Assembly: GCF_900109225.1 (NCBI RefSeq)
Contig: NZ_FNZK01000006.1
Location: 62,001-126,000, forward strand
DNA from: Propionispira arboris
Lineage (GTDB): Bacteria > Bacillota > Negativicutes > Selenomonadales > Selenomonadaceae
Length of the DNA stretch: 64,000 nucleotides
Reading direction: 5' to 3'
Part shown: in pieces, positions 24,986-51,856 of the stretch
Layout of the letters: each line of letters opens with the position of its first letter
Numbering within the stretch: the first letter of the stretch is position 1
Notes under the pieces: generated by a model
Seen by the model: the letters and a program-made list of their open reading frames with translations, nothing else
Database searches by the model: none
Told to the model about the DNA's origin: nothing
Program-made: the position numbers and the translations under genes

Positions 24986-25708
24986 TTACTCAAAATATCC
25001 GGCTAATGCTTTTGCATTGCCTTCTGATTGCTCATTACCTTTTGCCAGAGATTTCACAAAAGCTACATCCGGTGAATCGTCACCAACACCGCCTTTATTG
25101 CCTAACAAACTTCCTGCACCTGGATTTTGCGTATTCGCTACAAGTTTCGGATGTGCCATCAAAAAGTCTTTAACGAAATCATCAACTTTGGAGTTTTTAT
25201 CATCATTAAATGTGATAGACTCATCCTCTTCACTAACAACCATTTTTCCTAGCAGCATGTCCACAATAAGCGACGGATCATCTGCATTATTTTTCGCAAG
25301 TGCTTCCATAAGTGTGGTTCGCTTCATACCGTCAAAACGTTTACCACGTTCATCGGCAAGCTGCGTTTTATAGGTTGTTTCCTGTTCCGAAATCTTGCCC
25401 TTAAGTTTCGCAATTTGTTTTTGTAACGCTGGATCCGCTGACTTATCTTTTAAAGCTTTAGAAATTGCTTCATCAAGATCAGCCGCGTCTGCATCTACAT
25501 CAACACCCAGAGCTTCCAAAACCTTTTCTGCTTTTTCACTGGCAGCCATTGCTTTGTCAGCATCATCCTTGGCTTTTGTTTTCAGCGTCTTAAAATCTCC
25601 CTTTACTTTAGAAATTTCGCCATCTTTCGCAGCCACAAAGTCTCGTAAAGCCTTAGCTGCTGCCACATCTGTTTTTTCTAAAAGTGCTACAATCTGTTCA
25701 AATGTCAA
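24986..25708 (-). CDS. Capsid scaffolding protein
   Basis: The frame is open to an ATG at 25741, but that ATG abuts the run of T of a terminator; a TTG at 25708 preceded by AAGGAG at a 9-10 base distance is the better start, giving 240 residues. The product is highly charged with a long coiled coil (about residues 35-130, many KAK/DAD repeats, LQKQIAKLKGKISEQETTY) and a C-terminal part ending GNAKALAGYFE, as usual for phage scaffolds (DUF4355-like or gp20-like). It lies upstream of decoration and capsid genes. It would line the prohead and leave before maturation. Confidence 0.75.
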   Translation of the reverse strand: MTFEQIVALLEKTDVAAAKALRDFVAAKDGEISKVKGDFKTLKTKAKDDADKAMAASEKAEKVLEALGVDVDADAADLDEAISKALKDKSADPALQKQIAKLKGKISEQETTYKTQLADERGKRFDGMKRTTLMEALAKNNADDPSLIVDMLLGKMVVSEEDESITFNDDKNSKVDDFVKDFLMAHPKLVANTQNPGAGSLLGNKGGVGDDSPDVAFVKSLAKGNEQSEGNAKALAGYFE

Positions 25709-25740
25709 ATTTATCGACTCCTTTTTTCTAAAAATAAACA

Positions 25741-25774
25741 TAAAAAATACCGCTAGGAGAATTCTCCCGCGGTA
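25741..25774 (-). terminator. Strong hairpin terminator in front of the scaffold gene
   Basis: On the minus strand TACCGC and GCGGTA enclose a GGAGAATTCTCC palindrome and are followed by six T. It lies just upstream of the scaffold gene, so transcription into the capsid genes must read through it or be antiterminated. Confidence 0.75.
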
Positions 25775-25819: not shown

Positions 25820-25966
25820 TAAGAAAACCGCTATGCATTTAGCAAGCGGTTAAATATCAATATAAAAATAGAGATTCCTTGGCAGGCGTGCCTTCTCCTG
25901 CATCTCTCGGGTTGCCCCTGTCGGTACCATCGGCGTGTGGTTCACACGAAATTTACCACCTCAAAG
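25820..25966 (-). ncRNA. Candidate structured RNA with its own terminator, in the head operon
   Basis: This GC-richer block in an AT-rich gap carries no open reading frame of note. On the minus strand it has a hairpin CGTGTG-AAC-CACACG (25948-25934), a GGG-loop-CCC hairpin near 25918-25908, a stem GCAGG/CCTGC inside AGAGAT/ATCTCT (about 25906-25870), and then a terminator AACCGCT/AGCGGTT with TTCTT (25851-25821). The compact series of helices with purine-rich joints (GGGGCAACCCGAGAGATGCA) looks like a folded cis-acting or small RNA rather than spacer. I cannot assign an Rfam family. It sits between the MuF-type head gene and the scaffold gene, and a second terminator follows at 25774-25741. 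Confidence 0.5.
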
Positions 25967-25980
25967 AATTCTCTTTTTTC

Positions 25981-26115
25981 TCAAACTGCTATATCAGAGG
26001 TTTTCTTTTTTCTAGTAGGTTTGTTGGTAGGATTATTGGAATGATCCATATCGTTTTTTTGTGCCATCAAATCCTTAAACAGTTTCTTTAACTCGTCTTT
26101 TGTTGCGGCATCATT
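25981..26115 (-). CDS. Small basic protein after the MuF-type gene
   Basis: A 44-codon frame from ATG 26115 (second ATG at 26112) to TGA at 25983-25981. It starts MMPQQKDELKKLFKDLMAQK and ends in a lysine/arginine-rich tail (TRKKKTSDIAV). The ribosome site is weak (CAGG). It starts 14 bp inside the gap after overlapping the C-terminal region of the previous gene's end, position 26129. I do not recognise it. Genes next to MuF toxins sometimes encode immunity proteins, but this one is short and unremarkable, so I only note the position. Confidence 0.35.
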   Translation of the reverse strand, partial: NDAATKDELKKLFKDLMAQKNDMDHSNNPTNKPTRKKKTSDIAV

Positions 26116-26128
26116 AATACCTGGTATT

Positions 26129-27934
26129 TTATTTAGATTTCCCATACTCTACCCCTCCTTCAGAACATACAGATAAGAATTCATTAATTGCTTCCCTCTC
26201 TGTATAAACCTCATCTTCATATTTATTATAAATTATACTAAATAATTCTCTTATCCTATTATAAGCATACTTTTGAGTTTTATTCAATAGATAAATTTCG
26301 CCTTGATTCGTTACTACTGACATTATTTTTATCTGTCCATAGCTAATAAAAGTCATGATATCTGCTAAAGAAAGATTCGTAGTATTGGGATGATTATGGA
26401 TATACAAAAGTTCTCGTTCCCTGGAAGTACTAACCAAAGCAAAGGCTTGCGGATTTCTCCCAGGATTAACACTGTTTCTACTACCTAAAACTTGTACATG
26501 CTCAGCAAAATCCACTTTATAAATACCTAATACTTCATTACTTTTGTTGTGGTCCTTTGCTGTTTTCAATACCGATTGATGTGCTTCTTGCAATAGAATT
26601 TTTTGTTCTTCTGAAAAACCGTCAACTTCTACCAACCCAACTTTATCAATGGCAATATCTGTTATAAAAATTTTATGATCTCGTTTTTTCGATTGTTCCA
26701 ATGACTCCAACGACTCCACTCCTTCAAGATTAATTATATCACCTTCACCTGCATTATGTGGATCGTGTTTATCAAAATATTTTTTATTCAAGCGACTTTG
26801 GGGTTTATTAAACCCATCCCAGCCACGCAAAATCTTTTCCCAATCACTTCCTAAATGATAAGCCTCAACACCAGCTTTTCCAAAGAGTTGCTGCTGTTTT
26901 CCTTCTGGTAAAGCATCAATATATTCTCGTGCTTTTTTCGGCTGAAATTCTTGATCTGCTTTAACTTCCCAAACATAAATAACCTGCAGCATGCACATGC
27001 AGTGCGGATGCCGTGGAATACTTGGCACCTTATTTTTCGGATAAACGCCTTTACCAAACCCCACATTCATGTTTGCACAAACATCACACTGATCAAATGG
27101 TACAAGAGCGTGTCGGCTAGATAACACCCAACGATATCCCCAGACATCGGAATCATTTTGATTTTTAGCAATAAATCCATCAAACCAAGCACGTGCCGAT
27201 TCTGTACGGGCGATACGTTCTGCATGATAGCGTAACTTTTCTTCAAGAGCCGTATGCACAGCTTTATTAATTGTCTCGACACTAAATGTCTTGCAAGCGT
27301 TCACAAGCTCACTATACGCAGTCCGCAAATTCGGTGTTTTTCCCATATTTATTTTCTTTTTTATATCATCTGATAAAGCCAATATAGTCTGAGCCATTTG
27401 CATATCGCCATCGGCGGCCCAACGGGCATACATTTCTATTTTTTTCAGATATTGAGGTAACTCCGCTTGCTGAATAACTGTTTTCCCACTATTATAGCCA
27501 TCATATAAATTTATGGCCATATCTTTTACCGTTTGAGCCGCCAACATACTTTTACGGATTGTTGTTACGATGGATTCTCGCATCAAAGGTGTTGTGCCAT
27601 GCAATCGCTTCGAAAGTGGCATATCATCACCGGTCCAGGCATCAGAAAGCAATGTGTTTTTTATCTTTTCACTATTAACAACAAGCTTTGGCAAAACACC
27701 ATAGCCGGCACAAGCAGCAAGATAAATGGCATTTACCGTTGCCTCTTTGTTGGCATCAAAAAAAGACGTTTCCGAAAGTGCATCGGATACCGCCTTCACC
27801 AAAGATTTGCCGGTTTGAATGTCCTGGATGATTTTTTCGACAACCGGCTGCGCAATCGACTGATATTCTTTTTGATAGTCCTGAAGAATGTTTCTTACCG
27901 CTTCGCGAAAGTCTTCGCTCTTAAACGTTGCCAT
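26129..27934 (-). CDS. MuF-type minor head protein fused to a JAMM-like C-terminal domain
   Basis: The N-terminal 330 residues are a phage head morphogenesis (SPP1 gp7 / Mu gpF) protein: helical region, then RYHAERIARTESARAWFDG (about 235-253), C283-DVC and the closing SIPRHPHCMCML with C312 and C314. After a linker (about 380-420) comes a second domain with the JAMM/RadC-like metal pattern: E467 in NEVLGIYKVD, H513-N-H515-P, then S522-LAD525, followed by QIKIMSVVTNQGEIYLL. MuF proteins with variable C-terminal domains are known temperate-phage polymorphic toxins. Here the added domain could be a metallopeptidase, for example for self-processing or as an injected effector. It overlaps the portal gene by 14 bases. 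Confidence 0.85.
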   Translation of the reverse strand: MATFKSEDFREAVRNILQDYQKEYQSIAQPVVEKIIQDIQTGKSLVKAVSDALSETSFFDANKEATVNAIYLAACAGYGVLPKLVVNSEKIKNTLLSDAWTGDDMPLSKRLHGTTPLMRESIVTTIRKSMLAAQTVKDMAINLYDGYNSGKTVIQQAELPQYLKKIEMYARWAADGDMQMAQTILALSDDIKKKINMGKTPNLRTAYSELVNACKTFSVETINKAVHTALEEKLRYHAERIARTESARAWFDGFIAKNQNDSDVWGYRWVLSSRHALVPFDQCDVCANMNVGFGKGVYPKNKVPSIPRHPHCMCMLQVIYVWEVKADQEFQPKKAREYIDALPEGKQQQLFGKAGVEAYHLGSDWEKILRGWDGFNKPQSRLNKKYFDKHDPHNAGEGDIINLEGVESLESLEQSKKRDHKIFITDIAIDKVGLVEVDGFSEEQKILLQEAHQSVLKTAKDHNKSNEVLGIYKVDFAEHVQVLGSRNSVNPGRNPQAFALVSTSRERELLYIHNHPNTTNLSLADIMTFISYGQIKIMSVVTNQGEIYLLNKTQKYAYNRIRELFSIIYNKYEDEVYTEREAINEFLSVCSEGGVEYGKSK

Positions 27935-29354
27935 TATTAGCCCCTGGCGTTTCTGATTCTAAATAGGTTTTATCGTCTGGCTGCGCATCAATATCGCCGA
28001 TAACTGCATTCACTACTTTATCGTCTTGATTATTCAGCATGGTTCGTGCAGCAATCTTCTTGACTTCTTTATCGAATTTACCACCAATCCCAAGCAGTAA
28101 GGCTTTTGTGACTTTATCGAGCTCCGTAGAGACATCGACAACACCATAATCATCGTTATACTTTGATATGAATGCCAAATTTGTCTTTATATATAGTCCA
28201 AAAATCTCAGCAATTTTCTCTTCAAAAGCTTCTAAATTTTTAGCAAAATCTGCAATGGTCTGATTTGACGACTGATTATCCCATTCCTTTGATAACCCGG
28301 ATGTCTGTTGTTGCACCCCTGTGACATTCGCCCGTTCTGCCATGCGGTAAATCTCCTGAATCATGTTCTGGATTTCGCTAAGCAGCATTTCGGATGGTCC
28401 ACTTTCTGGAGTAATAAAGTCTGGTTTAGCTCCGGATATGCTCTTAAATAAAAGCATATCGGTTGTACTAACAACCAACTCATTCGCATCATTATAATCA
28501 TCATCTTCAGCAATCGGGTAAATCAGTAAGCTAAATGCTTGATTTCGATTTCGTTCTCGAAGTTCGCTGCAGGCATTATATATAGCAAGATTTGTTTTCG
28601 CAATCGAATAATATTCTGACTGTGGCAATTCATTTTCATCATCATCATTCAGTGCGCCATAAAGCGGCACAATGGGCAATACCCCAATCGTATTGACACC
28701 ATCTGTTTTCCCGTGCTCATCTTCCCTGATCCATTGCTCCGCAGTCCAAGTCCAGGTCACTGTTTTCTGCATTTTATTGCCATCAACAACATCGGTATAT
28801 TTCATAGTGTATTTCAACAGAGATAAATTACCGAATCGATCCATAGCCCAGGCTCTAACTTGATCCGGTTTAACAATATATATGAACGGGTATTGCCGAT
28901 TTTTCAGTGCAGCTGCCAAGTCTTCCTCTGTCTTAGAAAAATTATCAACAACACCAAATACGCACCCAAACAGCTTTGCCCGATCAGCCACCCGCTTCAT
29001 GAATCGATCTAATCTCGTTCCTTTACCATCCACATTTTGCAAGAATCCATCAAAGAGAGCATTCTTTGTATATTCCCTGACTGGCGGTTCTTTAAAAATC
29101 GGATTAACGTGCGCCTCAATGCAGGGTTTAAGATAATTGCAATAATATGCCATAAATCGCCGACGTACATATTTCCCCATACTTTCGCGGGGATGAGGAA
29201 CTAAGTATTCTCCATCTTCAAAGCCGCCCGTACCAGCATACGCATCTTTTAAGAAAATATATTTATCCGGAATGCCTCCACCAAAAGGTACCGCATTTTT
29301 TACGATCTCATATTCCGTCATTTGTCGTGCTTTCTTTTTCTGCCTTGGTCTCAA
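27921..29354 (-). CDS. Portal protein (SPP1 gp6 / DUF4055-like)
   Basis: A 477-residue protein with a TTG start at 29354, supported by GGGAGTAGGTGA upstream. Typical portal elements are seen: YYCNYLKPCIEAHVNPIF near residue 70, the segment GVLPIVPLYGALNDDDENELP (about 228-248), long helices around 300-400 (EIQNMIQEIYRMAERANV) and a polar C-terminus. It forms the DNA entry ring at one capsid vertex and docks the terminase. The order TerS-TerL-portal-MuF is standard. Overlap with the following MuF gene suggests coupled translation. Confidence 0.88.
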   Translation of the reverse strand: MRPRQKKKARQMTEYEIVKNAVPFGGGIPDKYIFLKDAYAGTGGFEDGEYLVPHPRESMGKYVRRRFMAYYCNYLKPCIEAHVNPIFKEPPVREYTKNALFDGFLQNVDGKGTRLDRFMKRVADRAKLFGCVFGVVDNFSKTEEDLAAALKNRQYPFIYIVKPDQVRAWAMDRFGNLSLLKYTMKYTDVVDGNKMQKTVTWTWTAEQWIREDEHGKTDGVNTIGVLPIVPLYGALNDDDENELPQSEYYSIAKTNLAIYNACSELRERNRNQAFSLLIYPIAEDDDYNDANELVVSTTDMLLFKSISGAKPDFITPESGPSEMLLSEIQNMIQEIYRMAERANVTGVQQQTSGLSKEWDNQSSNQTIADFAKNLEAFEEKIAEIFGLYIKTNLAFISKYNDDYGVVDVSTELDKVTKALLLGIGGKFDKEVKKIAARTMLNNQDDKVVNAVIGDIDAQPDDKTYLESETPGANNGNV

Positions 29355-29992: not shown

Positions 29993-31276
29993 CTAGAACT
30001 TGCCTGTCTGCAAGCCATAATTTTTATAACTGCCCTTAATGTCAGCCACTTCATAACCATCAAGCCCATACCACGTTGCACTAAATGTATGCGGATCAAT
30101 ACTGAATTCATCTTCAATAAGTTCACCATCTTTATTTACGGCATACGTTAGATCCTGTAATTCATCAATCGTATGCACGCATTCGGCTGAACAAATAATT
30201 TTCTTAAACCGCTTTACCTTCTTTGTGTTTTGTGTTCGACTACCTGGCGGCTTTTTGGCACCGATCATCCGAAAACCTTCTTGATTATAATATTTAATCG
30301 TTTTCGGTTCGGCCGAATCTGCCCGAATCAACTCTCTACTTTCAGCAAACTCCTGCAAGTCGACGGCGGTAGCATCATCAGTCATATGATTTTTGTAATA
30401 TTCCCAGTAAATATAAAGATATTTACGTTTATCATCGATGGCAATGCGAAGCACTGCATTATAGGAATCTTCAAAACCAAAATCCATTCCAACACGTAAA
30501 AAACGCGAAGGGATATCTCCCACCGCATTCATAACTTTTGTATGTGATTGTACTATAAATTGTGGCAATACGAGCGTCCCATTCACGCCAAACTGGCCCT
30601 TACGAGCAATCCGGTATAAATCCATATCATATGCCTTAAGAGCATCCAATTGCTCAATATAACTGTAAGGCAAAAAGTAATTATCATCCGCTACCGAATG
30701 ATGATAATAGGTATCGCCAATTCGCATAATACGTTGTTTATAAAGCATGGTGTCTTTAATTTTCGGTACCTTAAAGAAATGCTTATACGTCCAATTTGAT
30801 TTTGCCACTGGATTTGTAGACAAAATCATGTGAAGCTTTAACGTTGGATGACGTAAACGTCCGATAAGTTCTTTAAACCCCGCATACTTTATTTCACTGC
30901 ACTCTTCAAGCCAGATAATGCTGATGTTATGGATTGACTTGAGTTTTTGCGGTTTATCCATCCCTTTGAAAATAATCTTGCTGCCATTCGGAAAGCGGAT
31001 CTGCATCGGGGATGTAACAAAGCGGATCTTATCGTCTAAACCAAGATCGATTACAATTTCTTCAAACAACGAAAAACAGCTATCACGAATTGTGTCATAT
31101 ACATCACGGACCACTAAGGCGGTTCGTTTTTCAGCCAATAATTTCAAAATGATCTTTAAAGCAACATGATATGACTTCGATGAACCATAGCCGCCCACAA
31201 GGAAATAGAACTTACTGTCCCAATCAAAAAGAAAATCTTCAAAATGTGGATTTACCTCTTTATTGACTTCCATCAT
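29993..31276 (-). CDS. terL: Terminase large subunit
   Basis: A 427-residue packaging motor. The ATPase half has Walker A GGYGSSKS (residues 28-35) and Walker B IIWLEE (E124/E125), followed by the coupling motif STNP. The nuclease half has the metal-binding MDFGFED (D265) and RADSAEP segments. The family is the PBSX/XtmB-like group. It cuts concatemeric DNA and translocates it into the prohead through the portal. It overlaps the TerS gene by 17 bases, so the two are likely co-translated. Two ATGs stand in tandem at the start (31276 and 31273). Confidence 0.95.
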
Positions 31277-32084
31277 CGCGGCGTTCCTTTCTGCCTATAG
31301 TGATGTGGATAGGTTCATCTTTATCTCTAGCCCCCTGTGTTGCCGTCAATATTCGATGTTTACTTTCAATTGCCCGAGTCTTTGCCATTTGTACACGCGT
31401 CAATGCTTCTTCAATACGAAGGATTTGACTGATTAACATTTTCTTATGCTCTTCATGCGCAACCATTGATTTTTCTTCCTGGTAGGTTTTAACCTGACGA
31501 ACGATCCCTGTACGATCATCGTAGACATCCGTAATAATTGGTATTTTCCTAATTTCATACATCGTTTTGGTTTCGACCAATTCTTTTTGATCTTTTAAAT
31601 CTTTAAGATGCTGCAGCATACGGCGCTCACGAAATGTTAAAAGCCGGATATCTTCATCCATCTGTGTGATTGGATCGGTATTAATAGCCGCAAGCAGGTT
31701 TTGTTCCGTTTCATCCATCATATCTAACCAAATAGTTTGATATTCACCGGTAGCGACCGCATTCGTATTTTTAGGTGGTGCACCGCCGGAATTTCCTAAA
31801 GCATTTTTGTTACCGGGCGGTGCCCCATGCCCTTTTGCATTTTTATTACCAGGTGGGGCTCCCTTTTTTATTGGAGCGTTCCCTTTTTCCAATGGGAGCG
31901 CTCCCTTATTTGAATTGGAGCGCTCCTTTATTTTTTCGTCCCATTTATCTACCGTTTTCCACTTACGAATTTTTGAATCAGTAAGATTTAACTCTCCGGC
32001 AATGTCTTTAAGCAGCTTCTTACCGCCGCTATCTTGCCAAAGCTGAAATGCTTTATCTCTGTCTGGACTTCTCGCTCTTCCCAT
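31260..32084 (-). CDS. terS: Terminase small subunit (PBSX type)
   Basis: A 274-residue protein. The N-terminus ([16 protein letters not shown], then [22 protein letters not shown]) is the HTH DNA-recognition domain of the Phage_terminase small subunit family. A flexible linker with GAPPGNKNA repeats (about residues 75-110) is a normal feature of this family. The C-terminal part is a long coiled coil ([16 protein letters not shown] ... [16 protein letters not shown]) for oligomerisation. It recognises the packaging site. The gene starts the late module; upstream lie only decayed and accessory genes. Confidence 0.9.
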
Positions 32085-49961: not shown

Positions 49962-50696
49962 ATGGATTTCACAAAAATAGAAGAACTCCGTACAACGCTT
50001 AAAATGATACAACCACTAAATACTGGTGAACTGAAACGTTTGCGCGATGAATTCATGATTGATAATACCTACAACTCAAATGCAATCGAAGGAAACGTCT
50101 TAACGCTGGAAGAAACAGCACTTATCCTTCAATTAGGTATTACTATTGCAGAAAAACCAATCAAGGATCATCTAGAAGCAATCGGTCACAAGGATGCTTT
50201 TGAATACATCATGCAGCTTGCTGCTGACGAAACCGACCTCACTGAACACGTCATCAAAACCGTTCATTCTCTTGTACTTATAAATGATGCAAACAACCGT
50301 GGAGTCTACCGTAGCTTACCAGTGAAAATCCTTGGTTCTGAGCATATACCCCCGCAACCATATTTAGTACCGGTACAAATGGAAGAACTTGTCCACGACT
50401 ACACAAAGATGCAACAAGAAAAACATATCATTGAAGCAATTGCTGAATTTCACCTGCGCTTTGAAAGTATCCATCCGTTCATTGATGGCAATGGTCGTAC
50501 TGGGCGTCTTCTTATGAACCTGGAACTTATCAAAGCGGGTATGATGCCAGTCAATATTAAATTTACAGATCGTCTTAAGTATTATAATACCTTTGATGCT
50601 TATCGAAACGGCAATGCTATCGAAGCAATGACGACTCTTATTGCCAATTATGAAGTTGAGGAATTAGAAAAACATATTCAAATTTTAGCTCAATAA
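49962..50696 (+). CDS. Fic family adenylyltransferase (class II, N-terminal inhibitory motif)
   Basis: A 244-residue protein with the full Fic motif HPFIDGNGRTGR (H171 to R182). Near the N-terminus is the inhibitory helix motif SNAIEG (S39 to G44), the [S/T]xxxE[G/N] element that blocks ATP gamma-phosphate placement in class II Fic proteins. The substrate is unknown; typical reactions are AMPylation of GTPases, gyrase or elongation factors. Start ATG 49962 follows GGAAGTGATCAT. It is 48 bp behind the degenerate Fic, in the lysogenic region between repressor and integrase, so it is likely made in the lysogen. Confidence 0.9.
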   Translation: MDFTKIEELRTTLKMIQPLNTGELKRLRDEFMIDNTYNSNAIEGNVLTLEETALILQLGITIAEKPIKDHLEAIGHKDAFEYIMQLAADETDLTEHVIKTVHSLVLINDANNRGVYRSLPVKILGSEHIPPQPYLVPVQMEELVHDYTKMQQEKHIIEAIAEFHLRFESIHPFIDGNGRTGRLLMNLELIKAGMMPVNIKFTDRLKYYNTFDAYRNGNAIEAMTTLIANYEVEELEKHIQILAQ

Positions 50697-50739: not shown

Positions 50740-50827
50740 ATGGGGTAACTAACCTGGAGGTCAATCACCTTACACACTTAAATTATACTTGATTGGCCTC
50801 TCATATACAAATGAAAGGTTGATTATA

Positions 50828-51856
50828 TTGAAAAATCCTAACGGATATGGATCCGTTTATAAATTAAGCGGTAAACGTCGCCACCCATTTGTAGCGAAAA
50901 AAACATTGGGCTTTGACGATAACGGAAAACAGTTATATCAAGTAATAGGATATTATGAAAAGCGTGAACAAGCAATGCTGGCTCTTGCCGAATATAATAA
51001 AAATCCATTACTGATTGATAATGAAAAAATAACCTTCGAAGAAGTATTTGTTTTATGGAAAGCTAAAAAATTTGAAGGCGCTACTACTTCCACTATTAAC
51101 GGATATAACGCAGCATATAAGAATTCACCATCACTTCATAACATGAAATTCAAAGATATTAAGACAATGCATATGGATGCTGCCATAAGCAATTGTAAAT
51201 TAGGCTATGGCTCATTACGTAAAATGAAAATATTATATCAACAAATGTATGAATATGCTATGGCTAATGACCTGATTCAAAAGGACTATTCTGAATATGT
51301 AAAGCTTGGTGAAAATACTTCAAATCCTGACCGTCAACCATTCAGCGTTGAAGAAATTAATATGTTATTTGAAATTGAACCAACTTTACCATTCGTTGAT
51401 ACTATTTTGATTCTAATTTATTCTGGAATCCGTCCAGGTGAACTTTTGAATATTAAACACGAAGATATTAATTTAGATGAAGAATATTTTACTGTTACTG
51501 ATTCAAAAACCGAAGCAGGTCAAAACCGGTTAGTTCCAATTAGTAAAAAAACATTACCTTATTTCAGGCGCAGGTTTGAATTAAATACACCTTATTTGAT
51601 AATGCATCCAAGTAAGAATAAAAAAATGGGATATGATTATTATTATCGTGCAACATTTCAGCCTATTATGGACGAATTAAATATAAAGCATCGTCCTCAT
51701 GATTGTCGCCATACTTTTGCAACACTTTTAAATAATGCAGAGGCTAATAAAACTTCTATTAAAAATCTTATTGGGCATAATTCATTTATAACAACAGAAA
51801 AAACATATACTCATAAAGATATAAATGAATTGCGAAAAGCCATTGATTTAATCTAA
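50828..51856 (+). CDS. int: Tyrosine recombinase integrase
   Basis: The start is placed at TTG 50828 (AAAGG nine bases upstream), giving 342 residues. The N-terminal arm-binding segment begins NPNGYGSVYKLSGK, a core-binding domain spans about 65-165, and the catalytic domain has R202 (SGIRPGEL), H291-xx-R294 (HDCRHTF), H317 (GHNSF) and the nucleophile Y327 (KTYTH). It catalyses insertion and excision. A GAGG-CAATCA inverted repeat lies just upstream at about 50757-50799. The gene ends about 125 bp from the rpsI stop, beside three tandem repeats that could be arm sites. Confidence 0.92.
   Translation: MKNPNGYGSVYKLSGKRRHPFVAKKTLGFDDNGKQLYQVIGYYEKREQAMLALAEYNKNPLLIDNEKITFEEVFVLWKAKKFEGATTSTINGYNAAYKNSPSLHNMKFKDIKTMHMDAAISNCKLGYGSLRKMKILYQQMYEYAMANDLIQKDYSEYVKLGENTSNPDRQPFSVEEINMLFEIEPTLPFVDTILILIYSGIRPGELLNIKHEDINLDEEYFTVTDSKTEAGQNRLVPISKKTLPYFRRRFELNTPYLIMHPSKNKKMGYDYYYRATFQPIMDELNIKHRPHDCRHTFATLLNNAEANKTSIKNLIGHNSFITTEKTYTHKDINELRKAIDLI

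Follow-up and report, generated by a model that had tools for sequence, protein, structure and literature searches.

A JAMM-fold domain on a MuF-type prophage head protein of Propionispira arboris as candidate payload of an exchangeable effector-antidote cassette

The window considered here, i.e., the whole stretch of 64,000 nucleotides that was analysed (Propionispira arboris, contig NZ_FNZK01000006.1, positions 62,001 to 126,000), contains a prophage gene in which a MuF-type head protein is fused to a C-terminal domain with a predicted JAMM/MPN fold. On balance, we favour the view that this domain is the payload of a temperate-phage MuF polymorphic effector and that it belongs to an effector-antidote cassette of ~0.8 kb, where it would be made in fused form and probably also expressed alone. 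Since the segment has its own promoter-like site, a partner gene and chromosomal copies, a phage-borne toxin-antidote cassette is likelier than an ordinary head part. The proposed cassette comprises: (i) a junction promoter; (ii) a Shine-Dalgarno sequence; (iii) a TTG start; (iv) a JAMM-fold enzyme; and (v) a small overlapping antidote ORF. During activity of the late operon, the JAMM domain would be made as a MuF fusion, which would probably enter the next host together with the DNA. Transcription from the internal promoter would give the JAMM domain alone, together with the small protein, and prophage and stand-alone copies in chromosomes alike would then act as a toxin-antidote pair.

The best-supported description is that of a module with two uses: as a fusion it would serve as virion payload, and when transcribed by itself as a toxin-antidote pair. 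In a more far-reaching version, which we put forward tentatively, as somewhat less likely than not, one gene would give two products (a JAMM effector in the virion and, from the in-frame promoter, a free effector plus antidote that would keep the prophage), and the ~0.8-kb cassette would escape from phages and be recaptured by unrelated MuF genes. If true, (i) the puzzle of how an antidote is expressed in a lysogen with silent late genes would be solved, as the promoter would travel with the payload; (ii) phage payloads would be linked to chromosomal toxin-antidote genes via a cassette with near-base-exact borders; and (iii) the list of effectors that are probably injected would gain a JAMM-fold enzyme. 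In the literature searched (largely without subscription papers), no description of a MuF-JAMM cassette with an internal promoter was found among the papers listed.

Table 1. Features of the MuF-JAMM region and its prophage (positions within the window).
Feature	Positions	Strand	Basis or remark
MuF-JAMM gene, 601 aa	26129..27934	minus	uninterrupted reading frame
MuF-type head-protein backbone, residues 1-388	26771..27934	minus	phrog_1657 match; closest relatives align to residue 387-388
Low-confidence linker at junction, residues 391-419	26678..26764	minus	pLDDT <50, full-length model
Promoter-like site within MuF frame	26733..26762	minus	TCCACA, 18 nt, TATAAT preceded by TG
TGATATAAT, extended -10 of this site	26733-26741		
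Shine-Dalgarno-like AAGGAG before internal TTG	26719..26724	minus	no better than synonymous shuffles
Internal TTG, first of two	26708..26710	minus	
Second internal TTG	26699-26701	minus	begins LEQSK
JAMM/MPN domain, residues 413-601	26132..26698	minus	AlphaFold2, Foldseek, VIA-align
Catalytic-type E467	26534..26536	minus	motif, alignment
H513-N-H515	26390..26398	minus	motif, alignment
S522-x2-D525	26360..26371	minus	motif, alignment
54-aa ORF, candidate antidote	25981..26145	minus	17-nt overlap with end of MuF-JAMM gene
Exchange unit (linker, promoter-like site, JAMM domain, small ORF)	25981..26809	minus	DNA identity to L121 ends 26810, resumes 25980
Skipping-rope RNA RF02924, just outside exchange unit, before scaffold gene	25874..25969	minus	56.6 bits, gathering 36.7
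Portal protein gene, directly upstream of MuF-JAMM gene	27921..29354	minus	phrog_145, E 7.5e-53
Head scaffolding protein gene, downstream	24986-25741		phrog_194, E 1.5e-8
Major head protein gene, downstream	23188-24243		gene match
Large terminase	29993-31276		
Terminase small subunit	31260-32084		Pfam match
Fic/DOC protein	49962-50696	plus	PF02661, E 1.4e-21
Integrase	50789-51856		

The features are collected in Table 1; the sequence-only reading had named no strand for the MuF-JAMM gene, and the plus-strand reading of the interval that it occupies is full of stops. Residues 217-319 of the head part match the PHROGs family phrog_1657 ('head morphogenesis', E 1.7e-25) and the gene adjoins a portal gene, which agrees with the MuF fusion claimed by the sequence-only reading. 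No Pfam MuF model matches the protein at E <= 10, TIGR01641 matches weakly (E 0.47), and the name MuF is, in consequence, based on PHROGs and gene order. Besides the head genes, the prophage has tape measure, tail, capsid, packaging and replication genes; the tail, capsid, packaging and replication genes together with the integrase identify it as the genome of a temperate phage. The Fic/DOC gene, which lies just before the integrase gene on the same strand, may be a second gene of toxin type in this prophage.

The C-terminal part of the MuF protein is exchangeable. When the window is aligned with the viral contig L121 (BLAST), DNA identity is 95.2% between 29363 and 26810 and 90.4% between 25980 and 25537, with no match across the 829 nt in between, and in the corresponding slot L121 has a PBECR2 nuclease domain (E 8.4e-14). 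In the first relatives collected, the MuF backbones are 38-57% identical and the match ends at residue 382-401. In a wider alignment (A6, 21 rows), the toxin family Ntox50 matches three rows (best E 3.5e-24), which the result does not identify one by one, and further tails were read by eye. Such related backbones with PBECR2 and Ntox50 tails support the polymorphic-toxin setting that had been proposed. The stop codon of the 54-aa ORF (the stop ends at 25981) closes the swapped segment, and therefore JAMM domain and small ORF are swapped jointly.

This exchange bears on a very improbable reading, according to which the JAMM domain is a head maturation protease and its substrates are the head or scaffold proteins of the assembling particle. 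The location of the gene between the portal and scaffold genes would suit such a role, and one PHROG matched by the head part, phrog_17987, is annotated as head maturation protease. But the viral contigs L121 and L120, whose backbones are 92% and 91% identical to that of the window, have different tails, and stand-alone copies of the domain occur outside prophages, both of which speak against this reading.

Conversely, the same domain is found on other backbones. The search for further MuF-JAMM fusions that the earlier reading had suggested was productive: L054, L055 and L074 have the JAMM domain on MuF proteins whose backbones give no significant BLASTP match to that of the window (best E 0.53), and the backbones of L054 and L055 share a weak BLASTP match (1e-6).

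Just beyond the exchange unit lies a skipping-rope RNA, also found behind the MuF slot of L121 and of the pair L030/L123, which represents a single MuF type in two copies. Of the 12 sources of one search (which omitted L119, L124, L074, L075, L076, L017, L113 and L114), 9 had no such RNA, and neither had any of the 20 sources of another. The RNA may mark where the exchange unit ends on its 3' side; none of the papers listed in a literature search dealt with it.

Regarding structure, the JAB/JAMM fold foreseen from the motif is confidently modelled for residues 413-601: the AlphaFold2 prediction, whose input was an alignment of 27 sequences (the plasmid record L010 being left out), has a mean pLDDT of 95.6 and a pTM of 0.90. 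In the PDB, Foldseek places RadC first (2qlc; E 0.022, probability 0.84) and a Mov34 MPN domain next, with no PDB match at E <= 0.001. VIA-align gives Z scores of 8.2 for Sst2/AMSH, 8.1 for PfJAMM1, 7.2 for BubCD and 6.5 for RadC, where, as the tool itself warns, a Z of ~8 may reflect the common fold alone. Scores are modest in both comparisons, and the top of both lists consists of JAMM/MPN proteins. Among the viral models of BFVD, 18 match at E <= 0.001 (best 5.2e-18), and 8 of these bear the name minor capsid protein. The model of the full-length protein is weaker (pLDDT 75.6, pTM 0.49); Foldseek again lists RadC first for it (E 0.23), with no recognisable head protein among the best 50 matches listed.

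The residues E467, H513, H515, S522 and D525 are all located where the sequence-only reading had put them, in JAMM order. Together with P516 they are invariant in all 28 aligned homologue rows, many of which had been selected by the H-x-H...S..D pattern itself, a pattern-less match (L005) having been omitted. In six profile matches that were not selected by pattern (L081-L086), the H-x-H and the final Asp are present in 6/6. The Ser is found in 5/6, being replaced by Thr in L083 (which is the locus of L005), and the Pro that follows the second His likewise in 5/6. The putative metal-site set of E, HxH, S and D fits a peptidase, an activity that is itself putative.

The window domain is not a RadC, given that its His-Ser spacing is 7 and no Pfam family matches it at E <= 1. 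The spacing one residue shorter than in RadC, already claimed, holds: of the 19 RadC-type motifs that 20 loci provided, 18 have a spacing of 8. One of 12 JAMM members is matched by the Pfam RadC model (E 0.0041), and phrog_5057 matches 7 of 27 (best E 1.2e-6). In collections of phage and plasmid sequences, (i) no phage sequence matches the C-terminal domain at an E below 0.03, ORF29 of Streptococcus phage MM1 being a weak match (E 3); and (ii) one minor head protein from the plasmid collection matches it at E 7e-7. The Tox-JAB-1 pattern NxxxE, HxH, S, D (PMC3482391) is also present in the window (N463-x3-E467), and the JAB fold is shared; the available text of that source limits Tox-JAB-1 to Bacteroidetes, in combination with RHS repeats. 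Among the Pfam models listed for the 12 JAMM members there was no toxin-JAB or DUF4329 model.

These comparisons are relevant to an unlikely but not negligible alternative, namely that the domain is a JAB-fold nuclease or nucleotide enzyme and that the cassette is a toxin-antidote pair that works without protein cleavage. RadC is the closest PDB match, yet with a His-Ser spacing of 8 versus 7 here, and for both RadC and Tox-JAB the published authors, in the text available, lean to nucleic acids as substrates (PMC5512222; PMC3482391). The residue set E, HxH, S, D, in contrast, is that of metallopeptidases.

Somewhat less probable still is a counter-defence role, where the injected JAMM domain would strip a bacterial ubiquitin-like tag or disarm a host defence and the small ORF would encode a regulator. 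That the fused form of the window lies beside the portal gene of a temperate prophage is consistent with it, and VIA-align ranks AMSH-type deubiquitinases, PfJAMM1 and BubCD high; yet such values may be due to the shared fold. Moreover, 12 members compared with the PADLOC models gave no match at E <= 1, counter-defence is not needed by chromosomal copies that lack a phage, and the slot otherwise holds toxin-type domains (Ntox50, PBECR2). A deubiquitinase function was not accepted on the evidence of AMSH and BubCD in the VIA-align list.

For MuF toxins, delivery along with the phage DNA has been proposed (Jamet 2017; PMC5576092). In the available text of the same source, moderately toxic MuF toxins, peptidases being named among them, are proposed to sway lysogeny or to resist host defence, and 20% of 191 putative MuF toxins have some metallopeptidase domain, of kinds that this text does not specify. 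The protein described here has in common with those toxins a head protein encoded after the portal gene, exchangeable C-termini, a small downstream ORF and a temperate phage; it differs from them, as they are presented there, in its JAMM payload, its in-frame promoter-like site and start codon, and its stand-alone chromosomal copies. In the main text of PMC5576092, none of the words promoter, orphan and JAB is used. A metallopeptidase-type payload had been called uncommon in the sequence-only reading, which is only partly right in view of the 18 viral models in BFVD and of the 20% just mentioned.

A small ORF follows the JAMM gene with great regularity. It was found, with 41-77 aa, behind 27 of 27 JAMM genes scored, versus 4.0 expected from shuffles, in a count made without L007, L010, L040, L044 and the decayed L042, L045 and L064; it is likewise present after 6/6 further JAMM genes. 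Its start lies from 37 bases before to 21 after the end of the JAMM gene and, in one subgroup, the ATG is at an identical position with a 17-nt overlap (10 loci, plus L072 and L109). The small proteins are poorly conserved, with a loose [IL]xD...[ST]xEE pattern as their common feature, and no convincing family was found for them (best single-member E 0.0098 in PHROGs and 0.003 in Pfam). The decayed JAMM copies L041 and L045 retain the small ORF. Most likely, the small overlapping ORF encodes the cognate antidote of a domain that would be toxic on its own.

Stand-alone copies of the domain are located in housekeeping regions of the chromosomes of relatives. Profile matches occur in 12 of 189 genomes of the host family (the window's own genome counted), and 6 of these genomes contain 8 intact stand-alone loci, three of them in G418. 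Neighbouring genes, assigned by eye, include hisZ/hisG, RadA-like and porin-like genes, a sugar operon and ffh/trmD; the frame of one stand-alone copy (L040) is open upstream into an amidase-like fragment. Decayed copies have stops (G476) or are truncated (G479 and G572), and the one in G479 looks like the remainder of a MuF fusion. At the his locus, 89 nt in G550 correspond to 908 nt with the cassette in G411, a genome of the same genus, which implies that the cassette was gained or lost as a ~0.8-kb unit. A tree of 30 domains interleaves fused and stand-alone forms, the labelling of L007 and L044 being uncertain: the stand-alone label takes 7 changes, at least 5 of them forced by strongly supported branches. 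Since shuffled labels match these 7 changes in 38 of 500 cases, the stand-alone label is weakly clustered.

Regarding the means of dispersal, a mobile element was considered for the stand-alone copies and rejected: the flanks of 13 copies share only matches of 14-23 nt and have no common ends, with the exception of the related group L039, L040 and L064. No transposase or integrase adjoining the stand-alone copies was seen by eye in the ORF lists. A dispersed repeat as the source of the resemblance upstream of L034 and L049 was likewise dismissed, as there was one match in G550 (the site of L034 itself) and none in G411 or G418.

A promoter-like site is present within the MuF frame at the junction. 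The sequence TGNTATAAT stands exactly 22 nt before the domain start (TTG, GTG or ATG) in 10 of 17 copies, versus 0.0013 expected from shuffling, a spacing that was chosen after inspection of the data and three of whose copies (L039, L040 and L064) are near relatives; with at most one mismatch it stands there in 12 of 17, versus 0.018 expected. The exact site is found in (i) fused copies, i.e., the window, L055 and L074 (with one mismatch in L072 and L109); and (ii) separate copies, i.e., L034, L027, L029, L039, L040, L064 and L049. Nothing like it is seen at -22 in the other 5 of the 17 (L054, L026, L028, L038 and L042), a count that omits four fused copies lacking a matching start codon (L043, L073, L075 and L076), none of which has the site at -22. 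In the window, the 22-nt spacing holds only to the first internal TTG, with 31 nt to the second.

The strength of the site differs among copies. L055 and L074 have, in the MuF frame of other backbones, a perfect TTGACA-16-TATAAT with TG, which synonymous shuffles reach in 2 and 1 of 300 cases, respectively. The site of the window scores 12 of 14, as high as 10 of 300 synonymous shuffles, and its -35 matches in 4 of 6 positions. Among 14 fused genes scored from 18 rows (L004, L006, L067 and L068 were not included), the window, L055, L074 and L076 reach 12 of 14 and the other ten remain below. Over the whole region, promoter-like sites are no commoner than in shuffles (11 vs 8.2, sd 3.0), and internal Shine-Dalgarno matches show no excess over synonymous shuffles (P 0.2-1.0). 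From the fixed position of the -10-like site we infer that transcription could start within the MuF gene.

An arrangement of this kind is known from the Rhs toxins of Salmonella, whose toxin parts and immunity genes have internal promoters, act as type II toxin-antitoxin pairs and also occur as orphans, according to the available text of PMC7043789. The present cassette, with its candidate toxin part, promoter-like site, partner gene and stand-alone copies, has a similar anatomy; Rhs, unlike this cassette on a phage head protein, is a host system linked to the T6SS (PMC7043789). A putative junction promoter of the Rhs type has its sequence match in the window, with a weak -35. The C-terminal payload claimed in the sequence-only reading is retained, and that claim was too narrow: the domain also belongs to a cassette with a small gene, a promoter-like site, a start codon and stand-alone copies.

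Other tails were also inspected for the junction site. A further tail type (L114, L117 and L129-L144), on MuF-fused or other ORFs, occurs in 15 of 189 family genomes, two of the cases being MuF fusions; mostly, an ORF of 77-90 aa lies downstream, and L114, the member scanned, has no Pfam match. It is a candidate orphan toxin-immunity family. Its two fused copies have an exact TGATATAAT at the junction and 0 of 14 other copies do, with a one-mismatch site at a different distance in L132. Across other tails, the junction extended -10 is exact in L015, L114 and L117, has one mismatch in L014, L120 and L125, and two in L013, L113, L017 and L121; codons of an NGKI-type linker may explain the one-mismatch sites. 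The idea of a junction promoter in every MuF toxin was rejected, L012 and L115 having none and the other L114-type copies lacking it. Because 5 of 17 JAMM copies and these L114-type copies are without the site, the promoter claim is confined to this JAMM cassette and does not extend to MuF toxins in general.

Two further proteins were observed alongside. The sister MuF protein L014 has a tail with HEMTH, which we take to be a zincin-like metallopeptidase motif, and an ORF of 100 aa downstream. In L148 (6246-7103, minus strand), a JAMM-type protein of 285 aa without a MuF part is encoded near a gene that, by eye, is single-strand-binding-protein-like, and the small ORF downstream of it is unlike the cassette type.
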